From positions 1-23,985 of the IMG/VR virus record IMGVR_UViG_3300037153_000131: a stretch of 23,985 bases of DNA; one strand, written 5' to 3'. Every line of letters begins with the position of its first letter. Position 1 is the stretch's first letter. Positions 1-23,985 of this stretch are shown here, piece after piece. This DNA is from a virus. Position numbers and translations under genes: made by a program. A model generated the notes under the pieces. It saw only the letters and a list, made by a program, of their open reading frames with translations, made no database searches and had not been told where the DNA came from.

Positions 1-127
1 TACGGCGGCGTCGATCCGGGCGGCGGCGGGACGCTGGTCGGGCCGGGCGCGGGGCCCTCGGCGGCCCCGTCGGCGGTCGCCGCGGCGACGGCGGGATCGT
101 TGTCGGAGGGCACCTATCAATACGCGT
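1..127. repeat. Left copy of 127-bp exact terminal direct repeat (circular overlap)
   Basis: Bases 1-127 are identical to bases 23859-23985. The repeat lies inside a coding frame, and joining the two copies keeps that frame open. This indicates a circular molecule or circular assembly of 23,858 bp. The length of exactly 127 matches the largest k-mer commonly used by de Bruijn assemblers, so an assembly overlap is more likely than a real terminal repeat. Confidence 0.97.
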
Positions 128-2618: not shown

Positions 2619-2835
2619 GCTCGTCGCGGCGATCGGGATCGCCCTGACGGCGGCGGGCTGTCGGACGAGCGGCGTCTACACCGAATTCGAACGCGAAGTC
2701 GGGGTCCGCGCGCTGCATCCGCCGCCGTCGTTGACGTGCAAGGATGGCCGGCCGGTCAAGCTCCTCGTCGGGATGGAGTGCGCGATGGGGATCTGCGGGT
2801 GGACGTGCGCGGCCGATCGGTGGCGGGAACCTTAG
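2587..2835 (+). CDS. Small putative lipoprotein, possible lysis accessory (spanin-like position)
   Basis: The 82-residue frame begins at TTG 2587, overlapping the end of the membrane-protein gene. Residues 1-25 form a signal-like segment (arginines, then VAAIGIALTAAGC) that ends in a plausible lipobox with Cys at about residue 25. The mature part has four more cysteines, one in LTCKDG and three in the cluster ECAMGICGWTC, which could form disulfides outside the cytoplasm. Outer-membrane lipoproteins next to holin-like genes suggest a spanin-type job, but it lacks the Pro-rich makeup of Rz1, so function is open. The start is uncertain because no ATG or GTG is available in frame. It converges with, and overlaps by four bases, the repressor gene on the other strand. 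Confidence 0.55.
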   Translation: MVPSSWRRFGELVAAIGIALTAAGCRTSGVYTEFEREVGVRALHPPPSLTCKDGRPVKLLVGMECAMGICGWTCAADRWREP

Positions 2836-3191
2836 CGATGCGCGCGCCGTTTCTGTTTCGGCGGCCGCCGGCGGACGATCTCGAGGGTTTCCTGAAAGGC
2901 GGCGATCCATTTCGCCCGGGCCGACGATCGCAGGCCCCGCGCGAGCTCGAGGATCGCGGCCTCCTGGGGATCGGGCGGCGAATCGAGCAGATCGCCGATG
3001 GTATGGCCAAACACGCGCGCCAGGGTTTCGAGTTGATCGAGCGCGAGGCGCCCGTCCGGATTCCGCAGGTACCGGCTGATATAGCTCTGATGTTTGCCGA
3101 TGGCCGACGCGAGGGTGTCCTGAGTGATCGTGTCGCTCAGGTCCAACCATAGTTGCAGGCGCGCCCGCGCGCGATCGTCCAGTCGTCCCAT
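2832..3191 (-). CDS. Phage repressor, Xre/CI-like HTH
   Basis: This minus-strand gene encodes 119 residues from ATG at 3191; a GTG at 3227 would give 131. The segment TQDTLASAIGKHQSYISRYL followed by DQLETLARVFGHTIGDLL is a clear HTH_3 domain (about residues 25-70). The C-terminal half is basic, ends in KQKRR, and lacks an obvious S24 protease/dimerisation domain, so it is a short repressor. It is transcribed away from the early genes and shares a control region with them, which is the standard arrangement of a lysogeny switch. I prefer ATG 3191 because the dyad at 3206-3237 would otherwise lie inside the coding region; neither start has a good Shine-Dalgarno sequence. Confidence 0.8.
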   Translation of the reverse strand: MGRLDDRARARLQLWLDLSDTITQDTLASAIGKHQSYISRYLRNPDGRLALDQLETLARVFGHTIGDLLDSPPDPQEAAILELARGLRSSARAKWIAAFQETLEIVRRRPPKQKRRAHR

Positions 3192-3403
3192 AGGCGGCGA
3201 GCGGTATTGTGTGTGACGGCTCGACACGGTTCACAATCTGACTCCGGATATCCGTATGCAGTCAAATGCAAGCCCGGCCGCACATAAAAAGATCAAGGGG
3301 CGCCGAACGGCGCGTACGCGAGGGCTTGCGGGCGGATCCGTCGGCGTTCGCCCTAATAGCGATCGGCCAATCTATTGTTGGGATGCCTTCCGATTTTGCA
3401 GTC

Positions 3404-3771: not shown

Positions 3772-3932
3772 CGGGGATCCCGGCGTGGCTCGTCCGGCTC
3801 GTCACCGTCTGTCGCTGTACGCATCACTGGATCGTGCGCGGCGACGGCGACGGGATCCTGTGGCTCGAATGCGCGTACTGTGAAACGCGATCCGTCGGCT
3901 GGATCGTCCACGCGCCGCGGGGGCGATCGTGA
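3765..3932 (+). CDS. Small zinc-ribbon-like protein
   Basis: A 55-residue frame starts at ATG 3765, overlapping the upstream stop, and ends with TGA at 3930-3932, which overlaps the GTG start of the next gene. Cys16, Cys18, His20/His21 and the pair Cys36-x2-Cys39 form a plausible zinc site, with tryptophans around it (HHW, LWLECAYC, GWIV). Small zinc ribbons of this shape are common in phage early regions, but their role is usually unknown. The tight overlaps on both sides support real translation as part of the early operon. Confidence 0.6.
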   Translation: MLTGIPAWLVRLVTVCRCTHHWIVRGDGDGILWLECAYCETRSVGWIVHAPRGRS

Positions 3933-4291
3933 CGGCCTGGCCGTGGTTCCGGTTTTTTGCGCGAGACTGGATCGCGGACGGCCGGGTCCGGGAAATGTCA
4001 CTCGAAGCGCAAGGCGCGTATGTGCGGCTGCTCTGTTACTGCTGGCTCGAGCGGCGCGTCCCGGCCGATCCGACGAAGCTGGCGCGGCTCGTGGAAGTCT
4101 CGCCGCGGCGCTTTCGCCGATCGATCTGGCCGGCGCTCGCCGAGTGCTTTCAGGTCGTTGATGGCCGGCTGATTTCGCCGCGGCTCGAGCAGGAACGGCG
4201 CCAGGCCTCGAGCCGCTCCGCCCATGCGGCGAAGGGCGCCGGCGGCCGCTGGCTGCGGGCGATCAAGGATGCCCGGCCGATGCCCAGTTGA
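3929..4291 (+). CDS. DUF1376-type replication-associated protein
   Basis: The 120-residue product from GTG 3929 begins PWFRFFARDWIADGRVREMS and continues SLEAQGAYVRLLCYCWLE, the signature of DUF1376 (YdaU-like) proteins found at the replication-initiator position of many temperate phages. The middle part (DPTKLARLVEVSPRRFRRSIWPALAECFQ) looks like a winged-helix-type DNA-binding segment, and the tail is basic (LEQERRQASSRSAH). It is about the length of the N-terminal domain alone; many family members carry a longer C-terminal extension. The gene's last 24 bases are part of a tandem 11-bp repeat array, an arrangement comparable to lambda O, which contains its own origin. A role in origin recognition is therefore inferred. 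Confidence 0.75.
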   Translation: MTAWPWFRFFARDWIADGRVREMSLEAQGAYVRLLCYCWLERRVPADPTKLARLVEVSPRRFRRSIWPALAECFQVVDGRLISPRLEQERRQASSRSAHAAKGAGGRWLRAIKDARPMPS

Positions 4292-4322
4292 TGCTCAATC
4301 GATGCTCAAACGATGCGAGTAC
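4268..4322 (+). repeat. Five tandem 11-bp repeats, candidate replication origin (iterons)
   Basis: Five consecutive units of 11 bp each begin with GATGC: GATGCCCGGCC, GATGCCCAGTT, GATGCTCAATC, GATGCTCAAAC and GATGCGAGTAC. They start at 4268, 4279, 4290, 4301 and 4312. The period of one helical turn would put bound proteins on one face of DNA. The array straddles the stop codon of the DUF1376-type gene, so only part can be explained by coding. A shorter 7-bp tandem (GAGTACA twice, 4317-4330) follows. Confidence 0.65.
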
Positions 4323-4414
4323 AGAGTACAGAGATCGGGGTACTTAGATCAGCAACGAGGTAATTAGGGCGTGTGGATCCTGTGGAAAACCGATCCCGAT
4401 CGAGGCCGCGGCTG
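4292..4414. other. Intergenic stretch after the repeat array
   Basis: This 123-bp gap holds the last two and a half 11-bp repeats, the tandem GAGTACA repeat, and a less G+C-rich stretch (TACTTAGATCAGCAACGAGGTAATTAGGG in pieces, about 4341-4370) that could be the unwinding element of an origin. GTG 4373 inside it is an alternative start of the resolvase gene. No hairpin terminator is visible. Confidence 0.5.
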
Positions 4415-4996
4415 ATGGCGAACGCTCGAGTGCAAGTGACGGCCCGTCAGGCTGCAAGCGGATCGCGGCGGCGATCGCCGGCGACGCGGCGTCGGCCTGT
4501 GCAAAAGCTGTCGACACGGGAAACGGTCGTGTTCCAACGTGCGATCGCGACGCTCGATCACGCGCGCGAACGCTGGACGATCCATCTTCCGCGGCTCCTC
4601 CGATCGCCGAATGCCACGCTCTGGAAACATTGGCGCGTCAAGCAACGCGAGCGGCGCATCTGGCAAGGCCTCGTGTCGACGGCCTTGCTCGACGCCGGCT
4701 CGTACGGCGCGCGGCTCGTCGCGGCGACCCTGCAAGGCCGGCGGCGCGTCTGGTCGACGCAGCCGCAACGGCTGACGATCGAACGCCACTGCGCCCGGCC
4801 GCAACAGCTGATCCGCGATCCCGATAACCTGGCTTTTTGCGCCAAGCATCTCGTCGACGCGCTCGTCGCCGTCGGCCTGTTGCACGACGATACGCCGCGC
4901 TGGTGTCAGCGCGAGCCGCCCGTGCAGATCGTCGATGGCCAGGCGTCGACGGTCGTCATTCTCGAACCGATCCCGAAAGGAGATCCGACGCCATGA
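4415..4996 (+). CDS. rusA: RusA-family Holliday junction resolvase
   Basis: The 193-residue product is a RusA-type endonuclease, which cuts four-way junctions and is common in temperate phages without a full replisome. The key region is RDPDNLAFCAKHLVDALVAV followed by GLLHDD: Asp135, Asp137, Asn138, Lys144 and Asp158/159 match the conserved acidic and lysine positions of the family. The N-terminal ~60 residues are very basic and probably unfolded, and the protein is longer than the ~120 residues of E. coli RusA. I chose ATG 4415 because GAGG lies nine bases before it; GTG 4373 would add 14 residues. It follows the repeat array directly and ends four bases past the start of the next gene. Confidence 0.8.
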   Translation: MANARVQVTARQAASGSRRRSPATRRRPVQKLSTRETVVFQRAIATLDHARERWTIHLPRLLRSPNATLWKHWRVKQRERRIWQGLVSTALLDAGSYGARLVAATLQGRRRVWSTQPQRLTIERHCARPQQLIRDPDNLAFCAKHLVDALVAVGLLHDDTPRWCQREPPVQIVDGQASTVVILEPIPKGDPTP

Positions 4997-5310: not shown

Positions 5311-6435
5311 ATGCGGACGGTCTTACTACAGCCGACGGCCGCGGGCGCGATCGTGGTCCCGCCGATCGTCCGGCCGCCGCTGCCGCTGCCGCTCCCGCGG
5401 CCGGATCGCGACGGCGTCCCGTGGGCGACGACGCTCCCGTGGCCGAACGGCCAGGCGCCGCGCGATCGCGACTACTGCCGGGCGGATGCCTGGGGCGTCA
5501 CCATTCCCGGCCTGCCGTGGGTCCCGGGCGCCTCGAGCAGCTATCCCGAACGGGTGCTGACGTGGTTTCTCGATCGCTGGTCGCTCGACTGGCAACGGAC
5601 GATCCTGTCGACGTACGTCGGCCTCGGGTACACGCATTTTTTCCTGAGCGTGGGCGATAGCCTGGCGGCCGTCGATCAACCGCCCGGCTCGCCGCCCGGC
5701 GCCGGCCGATCCCTCGCGCAGTTCCGCTCGACGTGCGAGCTCGTGCGGTCGTACGGCCTGTACGTCGGCGTCATGCTCGGATCGAAATACTTCGCGACGT
5801 TTCCGACGGAACCGACGCTCTACGCGCCGCCGAACATGGATCCCGATCAATGGGCGGCGTATGCCGATCCGCTACTCGACGCGCTGCTCCCGGTCGTCGA
5901 CGAAGTTGTGCCGGCCTGGGAGTGGAATCTGTGGAATCGCACGGCGCCGGATGCGATCACGGCGATCACGCACATCGGCGATCGCTGTCACGCGGCCGGG
6001 GTCAGCTGCTGGCTCCATTTCTCGCCGCATTACACGAGTTGGTTTGCCGACGGCGATCCGCGCGGCCGGTTCGGGTTCTATGACGATCTCAACACGTCGA
6101 TCGACGGCCTGAACTATCAGGGCGTGAGCGACTGGACGACGCAGGACGCCGCCGATCGCGCCGTGGATACGCTGTGGCAATTCGCGCAGCAACCCTACGG
6201 GCACAAGTTCCGGTACTGGGAGGATCTCGCGTTTCTCATGTTCGACGGCAACCCGCAATGCGGGACGCCGCCCGACTACACCGATGGCGTCGCACGGGGG
6301 CCGGCCTGTACGCCGGAGGATGCGAATTGCCGCGGCTGGTACCTGGCCTGCACGTACGACAACGTCAAGCACACCGACGGAAAAATCTGGGGCTTTGGCA
6401 ACGGCGCCCGGATGCCGGACGGCTCGCGGATCTGA
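5311..6435 (+). CDS. TIM-barrel-like putative glycoside hydrolase
   Basis: The 374-residue protein opens with a Pro-rich stretch (VPPIVRPPLPLPLPRP, about residues 16-32) and then shows beta/alpha-barrel features: THFFLSVGDS, GLYVGVMLGSKYF, EVVPAWEWNLWNR, GVSCWLHFSPHY, SIDGLNYQG and HKFRYWEDLAF. Glu204 in WEWNLWN and Glu304 in YWEDLAF lie exactly 100 residues apart at probable strand ends, as acid/base and nucleophile do in many retaining hydrolases. The C-terminus has three cysteines (CTPEDANC, LACTY). The genome has no canonical endolysin, so this could be the lysis enzyme or a capsule/polysaccharide hydrolase, although its site among early and integration genes is unusual. AGGAGG (5300-5305) lies five bases before ATG 5311. 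Catalytic assignment is inferred, not proven. Confidence 0.55.
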   Translation: MRTVLLQPTAAGAIVVPPIVRPPLPLPLPRPDRDGVPWATTLPWPNGQAPRDRDYCRADAWGVTIPGLPWVPGASSSYPERVLTWFLDRWSLDWQRTILSTYVGLGYTHFFLSVGDSLAAVDQPPGSPPGAGRSLAQFRSTCELVRSYGLYVGVMLGSKYFATFPTEPTLYAPPNMDPDQWAAYADPLLDALLPVVDEVVPAWEWNLWNRTAPDAITAITHIGDRCHAAGVSCWLHFSPHYTSWFADGDPRGRFGFYDDLNTSIDGLNYQGVSDWTTQDAADRAVDTLWQFAQQPYGHKFRYWEDLAFLMFDGNPQCGTPPDYTDGVARGPACTPEDANCRGWYLACTYDNVKHTDGKIWGFGNGARMPDGSRI

Positions 6436-8250: not shown

Positions 8251-8300
8251 GTGATAACTGGCGATCGGGGCAAAGTGATAACTAAGTGATAACTGGCGAT
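8251..8300 (+). repeat. Three GTGATAACT direct repeats (candidate integrase arm sites)
   Basis: GTGATAACT occurs at 8251-8259, 8275-8283 and 8286-8294. The first and third extend to the 15-mer GTGATAACTGGCGAT (8251-8265 and 8286-8300). They lie next to the putative attP core. Repeated 9-10-bp sites flanking a core are typical arm-type sites bound by the N-terminal domain of tyrosine integrases, or excisionase sites. Confidence 0.6.
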
Positions 8301-22988: not shown

Positions 22989-23985
22989 ATGGCGACACTC
23001 GCGCCCGGCGAGAAGGCCCGGATGTTCGCGCTCGGCAAGATCGCGCGCGGCGGCGCGACGCGCGGCGGGTACACGTCGATGCAACCGTTCATCACGATCA
23101 ACGGCGTACACGTCGGGACGGCGCCGGCCGATCCCGCCAAACGCGTCCTCGTCTCGAATCTCACGATTCACGACACGCTCGACGAGGCGCCGAATACCCT
23201 GCAGATGACGGTCAAGGGCTTTCAACCGCTCACGGGCCAGGCGATCGTCGTCACGCTCGGATCGAAAAATTCGCTGACACGGTGGTTCGGCGGCGTCGTG
23301 CTCTCCACGACCGAGGGCTATCTCGTGGAGAACCCGGCGAACGTGGTCTATCAGGTCAACGGCATTGATTATCACTGGCCACTGGCGAACCATCTCGCGA
23401 TCCGGCGCTACACGGGCTGGACGGCCGGCGCCGTGATTCGCGATCTCGTCGCGTCGTTTGCGGAAGGCTTTACGACGAAGGCCGTGGCGGCGGAGCTCGA
23501 CGCGTTTCCGCTCGACGAGATTACGTTCACGAATACCGCCGTCCCGGATGCGATCACGCAGGTGTGCGACCGGGTCGGCGCGTACTGGTACGCCGACTAT
23601 TTCAAAGACGTCCATGCCTTCATCACCTCGGAGACAATCTACGCCCCGCCGCCGGCCCTGACGCCGGCGCATCCCTCCTTGGCGGACGTGAAAGCCAATC
23701 GCGATCTCTCGCAAATTGTCACGCGCGCGATCGTCGAAGGCGGTGGCGGGACGGCGGCCTCGGCCCTGGTCGTCGGCGAGACGTTGATGCCCCTCGATAC
23801 GGTGGCGTGGTATCAGACGGCGGGCGGCGTCGTCGTCTCGGGGCCGCAACGGATCACGTACGGCGGCGTCGATCCGGGCGGCGGCGGGACGCTGGTCGGG
23901 CCGGGCGCGGGGCCCTCGGCGGCCCCGTCGGCGGTCGCCGCGGCGACGGCGGGATCGTTGTCGGAGGGCACCTATCAATACGCGT
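22989..23985 (+). CDS. Tail hub / baseplate-like protein, N-terminal part (runs over right edge)
   Basis: The gene starts at ATG 22989 three bases after the tape measure stop and is open to the window edge. It continues at base 1 (frame preserved) to the stop at 1560, for 809 residues in all. The N-terminal ~290 residues contain QPFITINGVHVGTAPADPAK, ILTIHDTLDEA-like strands (SNLTIHDTLDEAPNTLQM), RWFGGVVLSTTEGYL, VYQVNGIDYHWPLANHLAIR and DAITQVCDRVGAYWYADYFK. These are the signature of gp27/gpD-like hub domains, which form the trimeric ring at the tail tip. The last 127 bases repeat bases 1-127. Annotating the window as linear would split this gene in two. Confidence 0.85.
   Translation, partial: MATLAPGEKARMFALGKIARGGATRGGYTSMQPFITINGVHVGTAPADPAKRVLVSNLTIHDTLDEAPNTLQMTVKGFQPLTGQAIVVTLGSKNSLTRWFGGVVLSTTEGYLVENPANVVYQVNGIDYHWPLANHLAIRRYTGWTAGAVIRDLVASFAEGFTTKAVAAELDAFPLDEITFTNTAVPDAITQVCDRVGAYWYADYFKDVHAFITSETIYAPPPALTPAHPSLADVKANRDLSQIVTRAIVEGGGGTAASALVVGETLMPLDTVAWYQTAGGVVVSGPQRITYGGVDPGGGGTLVGPGAGPSAAPSAVAAATAGSLSEGTYQYA
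23859..23985. repeat. Right copy of 127-bp exact terminal direct repeat
   Basis: These bases are identical to 1-127; see the left copy. Counting this segment once gives the circular length of 23,858 bp. Confidence 0.97.

Follow-up and report, generated by a model that had tools for sequence, protein, structure and literature searches.

The five 11-bp direct repeats at the end of a DUF1376 gene in the viral record IMGVR_UViG_3300037153_000131 (analyzed at its full length of 23,985 nucleotides and hereafter called the window) are likely to constitute the initiator-binding part of a phage replication origin, at which the DUF1376 protein binds the array, an AT-rich stretch opens, and DnaA helps to recruit the helicase. 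Many unrelated phages show the same layout in their corresponding genes, so that the repeats are very probably landing sites of the initiator. Mechanistically, the stand-alone winged-helix DUF1376 protein would bind the five repeats, which, being one helical turn apart, all face the same side of the helix. The complex formed in this way would strain and open the adjacent AT-rich stretch with its 7-bp repeats, and host DnaA on two downstream boxes would probably help to bring in the host helicase. This role of DnaA is proposed because most relatives have a C-terminal part of roughly 150 residues that is missing from the window initiator, and because no helicase loader gene was recognized adjoining it. 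Taken as a whole, we infer binding, strand opening, helicase recruitment, and origin activity.

Within the window, the units, each led by GATGC, follow one another in exact 11-bp steps (Table 1). TRF reported a repeat at 4268-4316 with period 11, 4.5 copies, and 81% matches; the pattern GATGC(N6 GATGC)x3 occurred twice (overlapping) in the window vs not at all in 100 dinucleotide shuffles. Among lags 4-29, examined over the whole window, lag 11 gave the top signal with 33/44 identities at 4268, the next best reaching 29. The original prediction had described five repeats of perfect period extending beyond the coding region. Their number and exact period stand, but the unit sequences are not identical and unit 5 retains little except GATGC; likewise, the array does run past the coding end, but with the DUF1376 stop codon at 4289-4291 about 2.8 units, rather than the claimed two and a half, are non-coding, the first two units lying within the last 24 bases of the gene. 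Repetition of the protein cannot explain the arrays: neither 11 nor 7 is a multiple of three, and the encoded peptide thus cannot be what is selected. Single-strand folding of 4260-4400 was no better than that of shuffles (z +0.66), which does not suggest a hairpin origin or an RNA element.

Table 1. Coordinates of the array and of further features of the window.
Feature	Position	Strand	Basis or remark
Five 11-bp direct repeats (GATGC + 6), proposed initiator-binding iterons	4268..4322	+	DUF1376 stop codon inside
Unit 1, GATGCCCGGCC	starts at 4268	+	
Unit 2, GATGCCCAGTT	starts at 4279	+	
Unit 3, GATGCTCAATC	starts at 4290	+	
Unit 4, GATGCTCAAAC	starts at 4301	+	
Unit 5, GATGCGAGTAC	starts at 4312	+	
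DUF1376 replication initiator gene, 120 aa, N-terminal winged-helix domain only	3929..4291	+	PF07120, PHROG, AF2 model
GAGTACA x2.4, 7-bp repeat	4317..4333	+	TRF; counterpart of the 6/7-bp arrays after 11-bp arrays in homologues
AT-rich patch, candidate unwinding element	4317..4390	.	base composition
RusA-like Holliday junction resolvase gene, neighbor in the replication/recombination module	4373..4996	+	phrog_34, E 2.3e-8
DnaA box TTTTCCACA	4381..4389	-	exact motif match
DnaA box TTTTGCACA	4498..4506	-	inside RusA-like ORF
Cro/C1-type regulator gene	2832..3227		
374-aa ORF	5311..6435		
11-bp direct duplication, AAGTGATAACT x2	8273..8294		
127-base direct terminal repeat	1..127 and 23859..23985		

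The identity of the neighboring genes was confirmed. The putative initiator matched PF07120 with an E value of 5.2e-13 and 49.6 bits (curated cut-off 30.1) and fell into the PHROG class of primosomal proteins (E 9e-13), and the following gene encodes the RusA-like resolvase. Neither the RepA_N profile PF06970 nor the lambda O profile PF04492 (Phage_rep_O) matched the initiator at E up to 0.1, leaving DUF1376 as the only match, and direct search of IMG/VR returned no close relatives of this protein or of the RusA-like protein. An AF2 model based on a 63-sequence alignment showed a winged-helix topology at a pLDDT of 85.6; the model from the single sequence was unusable (pLDDT 48). The best solved matches of the model in both aligners were the RepA_N plasmid initiators 4pta, 4pql, and 5kbj, with values that are weak, in a fold that is common (Foldseek E 0.03; VIA-align Z 6.6, rmsd 3.4 over 82 residues) and thus support the class of DNA-binding domain without proving descent. 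A sequence profile search of the PDB gave no match.

The recurrence of the array beside homologous genes was evaluated in loci collected from bacterial genomes by the Pfam profile and from IMG/VR by three domain alignments, yielding 316 loci with 229 non-redundant tails. An array was scored wherever, within the 400 bp after the domain, a 33-bp stretch had 22 or more lag-11 identities. On this basis 63/229 non-redundant loci carry an 11-bp array after the domain, vs one in the 400 bp before the gene, none in the 400 bp after the stop codon, and 0.15 on average (at most 1) in codon-shuffled tails. The original prediction had proposed looking for this spacing beside homologous genes of other phages, and the outcome of that check is strongly in its favor. 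Relaxing the threshold to 20 identities raised the count to 95/229 and left 134/229 loci without a clear 11-bp array, while 156/229 had an 11-bp array, a short array, or both. Lag 10 was essentially absent (1 of the 229 tails); further prominent lags were 7 (71 tails) and 6 (56), their multiples, and 22, 23, and 33. Unit counts showed an apparent mode at four, which was not used as evidence because the 44-bp detection window forces a floor of that size. A lambda-O control family comprised only two loci, both without an 11-bp array and too few for a conclusion.

Beyond its recurrence, the array is embedded in a two-part layout. Its median distance from the domain start is 356 bp in homologues (327 bp in the window), and it is accompanied by short arrays with a period of 6 (68) or 7 (62), 130 of which were observed vs 0.5 predicted by codon shuffling. 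In 46 of the 47 loci with both classes the short array lies 3' of the 11-bp array, mostly starting 40-65 bp after the start of the latter. The window follows this order, with five 11-mers preceding GAGTACA x2.4 at +48 in an AT-rich patch (57.5% AT in the best 40 bp at a window mean of 34%, 99.5th percentile); the 7-bp repeat, absent from the original prediction, overlaps unit 5 and continues the array. On the coding strand, the short arrays of homologues are rich in A and C (A 38%, C 40%, T 12%, G 10%); ACC is present in 84% of their units, a motif missing from the GAGTACA repeat of the window. An overlap of the array with the gene end was found among the surveyed cases in the window only, the array being presumably pushed there because the initiator is only 120 aa long. 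CAG occurs in about half of the short units of homologues; its reverse complement, CTG, is the start triplet of the E. coli primase.

This placement also bears on the reading of the array as an operator, by which the DUF1376 protein or a Cro/C1-type repressor regulates transcription with no part in initiation. A winged-helix protein with cognate repeats could indeed autoregulate as well, and a Cro/C1-type regulator gene is located close by. We regard an operator as improbable nevertheless, considering that in homologues the arrays are located 3' of the domain within the coding sequence, a long way from the gene start, and are followed by a second repeat class, and that no cluster of units was found upstream of the DUF1376 gene.

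Comparison of unit sequences among lineages (AATGCGAACGC, CGTTCAACGNC, GATGCTCAAAC, and others, as well as the CGTTCAAC type) revealed a co-variation with the adjoining domain. Unit similarity rose from 7.8 of 11 positions in pairs with 60-70% domain identity to 8.6 at 70-80%, 8.8 at 80-90%, and 9.9 above 90%; in pairs below 60% it was at chance (5.7-6.2 of 11; shuffled 5.8). In pairs at 60-80% domain identity the array block was 61-68% identical, with 42-49% in the blocks before and after it and a background of 42-45%. Conservation of the array together with the domain and beyond its flanks is what one expects of a binding site retained along with its reader. The window unit itself is not clearly similar to any other surveyed unit (best 8 of 11), and it is through its layout and its gene family, rather than through the sequence of its repeats, that the window belongs to this class.

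The same data weigh on a neutral origin of the array, namely replication slippage in a tolerant linker yielding a tandem repeat devoid of function. Although linkers tolerate repeats and 11-bp GATGC arrays also occur at unrelated sites of bacterial genomes, slippage hardly accounts for arrays at the same place in 63/229 homologues with 0-1 in controls, for a period fixed at 11 instead of mixed periods, for unit sequences conserved with the domain beyond the flanks, and for a fixed order relative to the short repeats, and we give it a low probability. Binding of a host protein (DnaA, IHF, or another) rather than the phage protein is very unlikely: exact DnaA boxes are close by, but the array units do not resemble them and their sequence follows the phage domain. 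Just two exact boxes (TTWTNCACA) occur in the window vs 0.19 expected, a count that is partly post hoc as the motif was searched after the first box had been noticed; they lie downstream of the array at distances of 58 and 175 bp. DnaA boxes were not enriched in the DUF1376 homologues and are therefore specific to the window.

The ends of the window are identical, forming a direct terminal repeat, so that the record is probably a complete circularized genome of about 23.86 kb. Given the presence of a tyrosine integrase gene, an integrated prophage is likely. About 100 bp downstream of this gene, the perfect direct duplication AAGTGATAACT x2 was noticed, which is possibly part of an attachment site, and directly after the replication module an ORF without Pfam or PHROG match is located. 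Cumulative GC skew, which the original prediction had suggested as a further check, displayed only a local rise around 4.5 kb, lacked a global extremum, and is uninformative.

In length and number, the repeats equal the 11-bp ParR-binding repeats of plasmid R1 parC, and direct repeats in helix phase would suit a segregation centromere as well. Among the 18 scanned ORFs of the window, though, no ParM, ParR, ParA, or ParB family scored above cut-off, the HTH_ParB similarity of the Cro/C1-type regulator being sub-threshold; the likely integrated state and the tracking of an initiator-type domain by the homologue arrays further argue against partitioning, making a centromere highly improbable.

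The spacings of known iteron plasmids amount to about two helical turns (19-22 bp); the window iterons differ from these by their one-turn spacing and by the family of the initiator. An iteron origin is typically built from iterons in phase with the helix, an AT-rich region, and DnaA boxes (PMC5043065), and helix-phased direct repeats with an AT-rich region and DnaA boxes are what the window has in common with the plasmids P1, RK2, F, and pSC101 (PMC5043065). Direct repeats in helical phase, an overlap with the initiator gene, and an adjacent AT-rich region were all found in the window. Ori-lambda offers another parallel: its iterons lie inside the initiator gene O, 3' of the DNA-binding domain, and a stretch that opens easily comes next (PMC5043065; PMC7466680). 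Lambda iterons, however, are 19 bp long, internally inverted, and bound by O dimers, whereas DUF1376 loci have direct repeats of 11 bp and, after them, repeats of 6/7 bp; moreover, the window array straddles the gene end, unlike ori-lambda, and DUF1376 does not belong to the Phage_rep_O family.

RepA_N initiators (pSK41, pTZ2162; phage satellite PLE) have a winged-helix N-terminal domain of ~120 residues, to which the domain modeled for the window protein is weakly similar. They bind Rep boxes inside their own gene, where the linker specified by the repeats is not needed as protein (PMC5703833), and in PLE the origin and the RepA_N domain vary together (PMC8263062); in-gene repeats and domain-repeat co-variation are thus common to both groups. 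RepA_N iterons differ in being semi-palindromic with poly-A (PMC7145576), and DUF1376 lacks a RepA_N sequence match. Interpretation of the array as an iteron origin, put forward by the original prediction, is accordingly supported by the recurrence in 63/229 loci, the unit-domain co-variation, and the modeled winged helix; its comparison with the longer iterons of lambda and plasmids was incomplete, since RepA_N plasmids keep short repeats in the initiator gene (PMC5703833). Overall, the system appears to work like an initiator-binding origin of the lambda or RepA_N style, its protein being assigned by sequence to DUF1376 and not to RepA_N or lambda O.

Among named phages, the Sinorhizobium phage phiLM21 presents the layout clearly, with GGACGTTCAAC repeats followed by CCAGAAG repeats (lag-11 score 27/33), and its DUF1376 gene adjoins a DnaB helicase and a DnaA-like gene. 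The DUF1376 gene of phage Pkon1 also adjoins a DnaB helicase. The layout was further found in Bordetella phage IFTN2 (lag-11 score 24) and Moraxella phage Mcat18 (23), and in Xanthomonas Rb1, Thalassomonas BA3, and Acinetobacter Ab105-1phi only the 7-bp part is clear. None of ten named phage records contains annotated repeats at the DUF1376 gene, and no open-access paper linking DUF1376 to iterons was found. In the Rac prophage of E. coli K-12, ydaU (L484:5620-6477) is a DUF1376 gene. It resembles the window in carrying repeats after the domain and differs in the weaker array, a degenerate GRTGTTnAA series with 11/12/13 and 33-bp steps (P about 0.004). Rac has an active origin, oriJ (PMC3945230), which ydaU may contain or adjoin.

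DUF1376 is a common unnamed gene in the replication regions of temperate phages, mostly annotated as hypothetical, and it gains a probable function in origin recognition, with iterons spaced by a single helical turn in place of two. The layout provides a simple rule for finding origins in DUF1376 phages and prophages, and because arrays can be matched to domains by sequence, initiator specificity is directly testable by swaps of domains and repeats in laboratory phages; Rac ydaU is a ready laboratory case. Lin1244_N genes of Bacteroidota represent another phage initiator-like family, in which one locus (L479) was observed to combine an 11-bp array with subsequent 5-bp repeats (28/33) and a second one (L477) 22/11-bp arrays with 5-bp repeats in the linker. 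Hence, the layout may extend beyond DUF1376. We see an even chance that the small winged-helix phage initiators (DUF1376, Lin1244_N) share an undescribed origin architecture, consisting of in-gene 11-bp one-turn iterons read by the cognate domain and a following strand-asymmetric, mostly A+C-rich track of 5-7-bp repeats serving as a single-stranded platform or priming region.

As a diagnostic, the bare GATGC motif was discarded after a pattern search of bacterial genomes had returned many arrays unrelated to replication genes. Numerous 11-bp GATGC-type tandem arrays, including a GATGCCTAGAT and a GATGCAACTTT family, were dispersed in single bacterial genomes of the Bacteroidales MAG CAMHDJ (L035, L059, L122, L134, L148, and others) and of Lachnospiraceae (L041, L061, L144, L149), apparently unrelated to phage replication genes.
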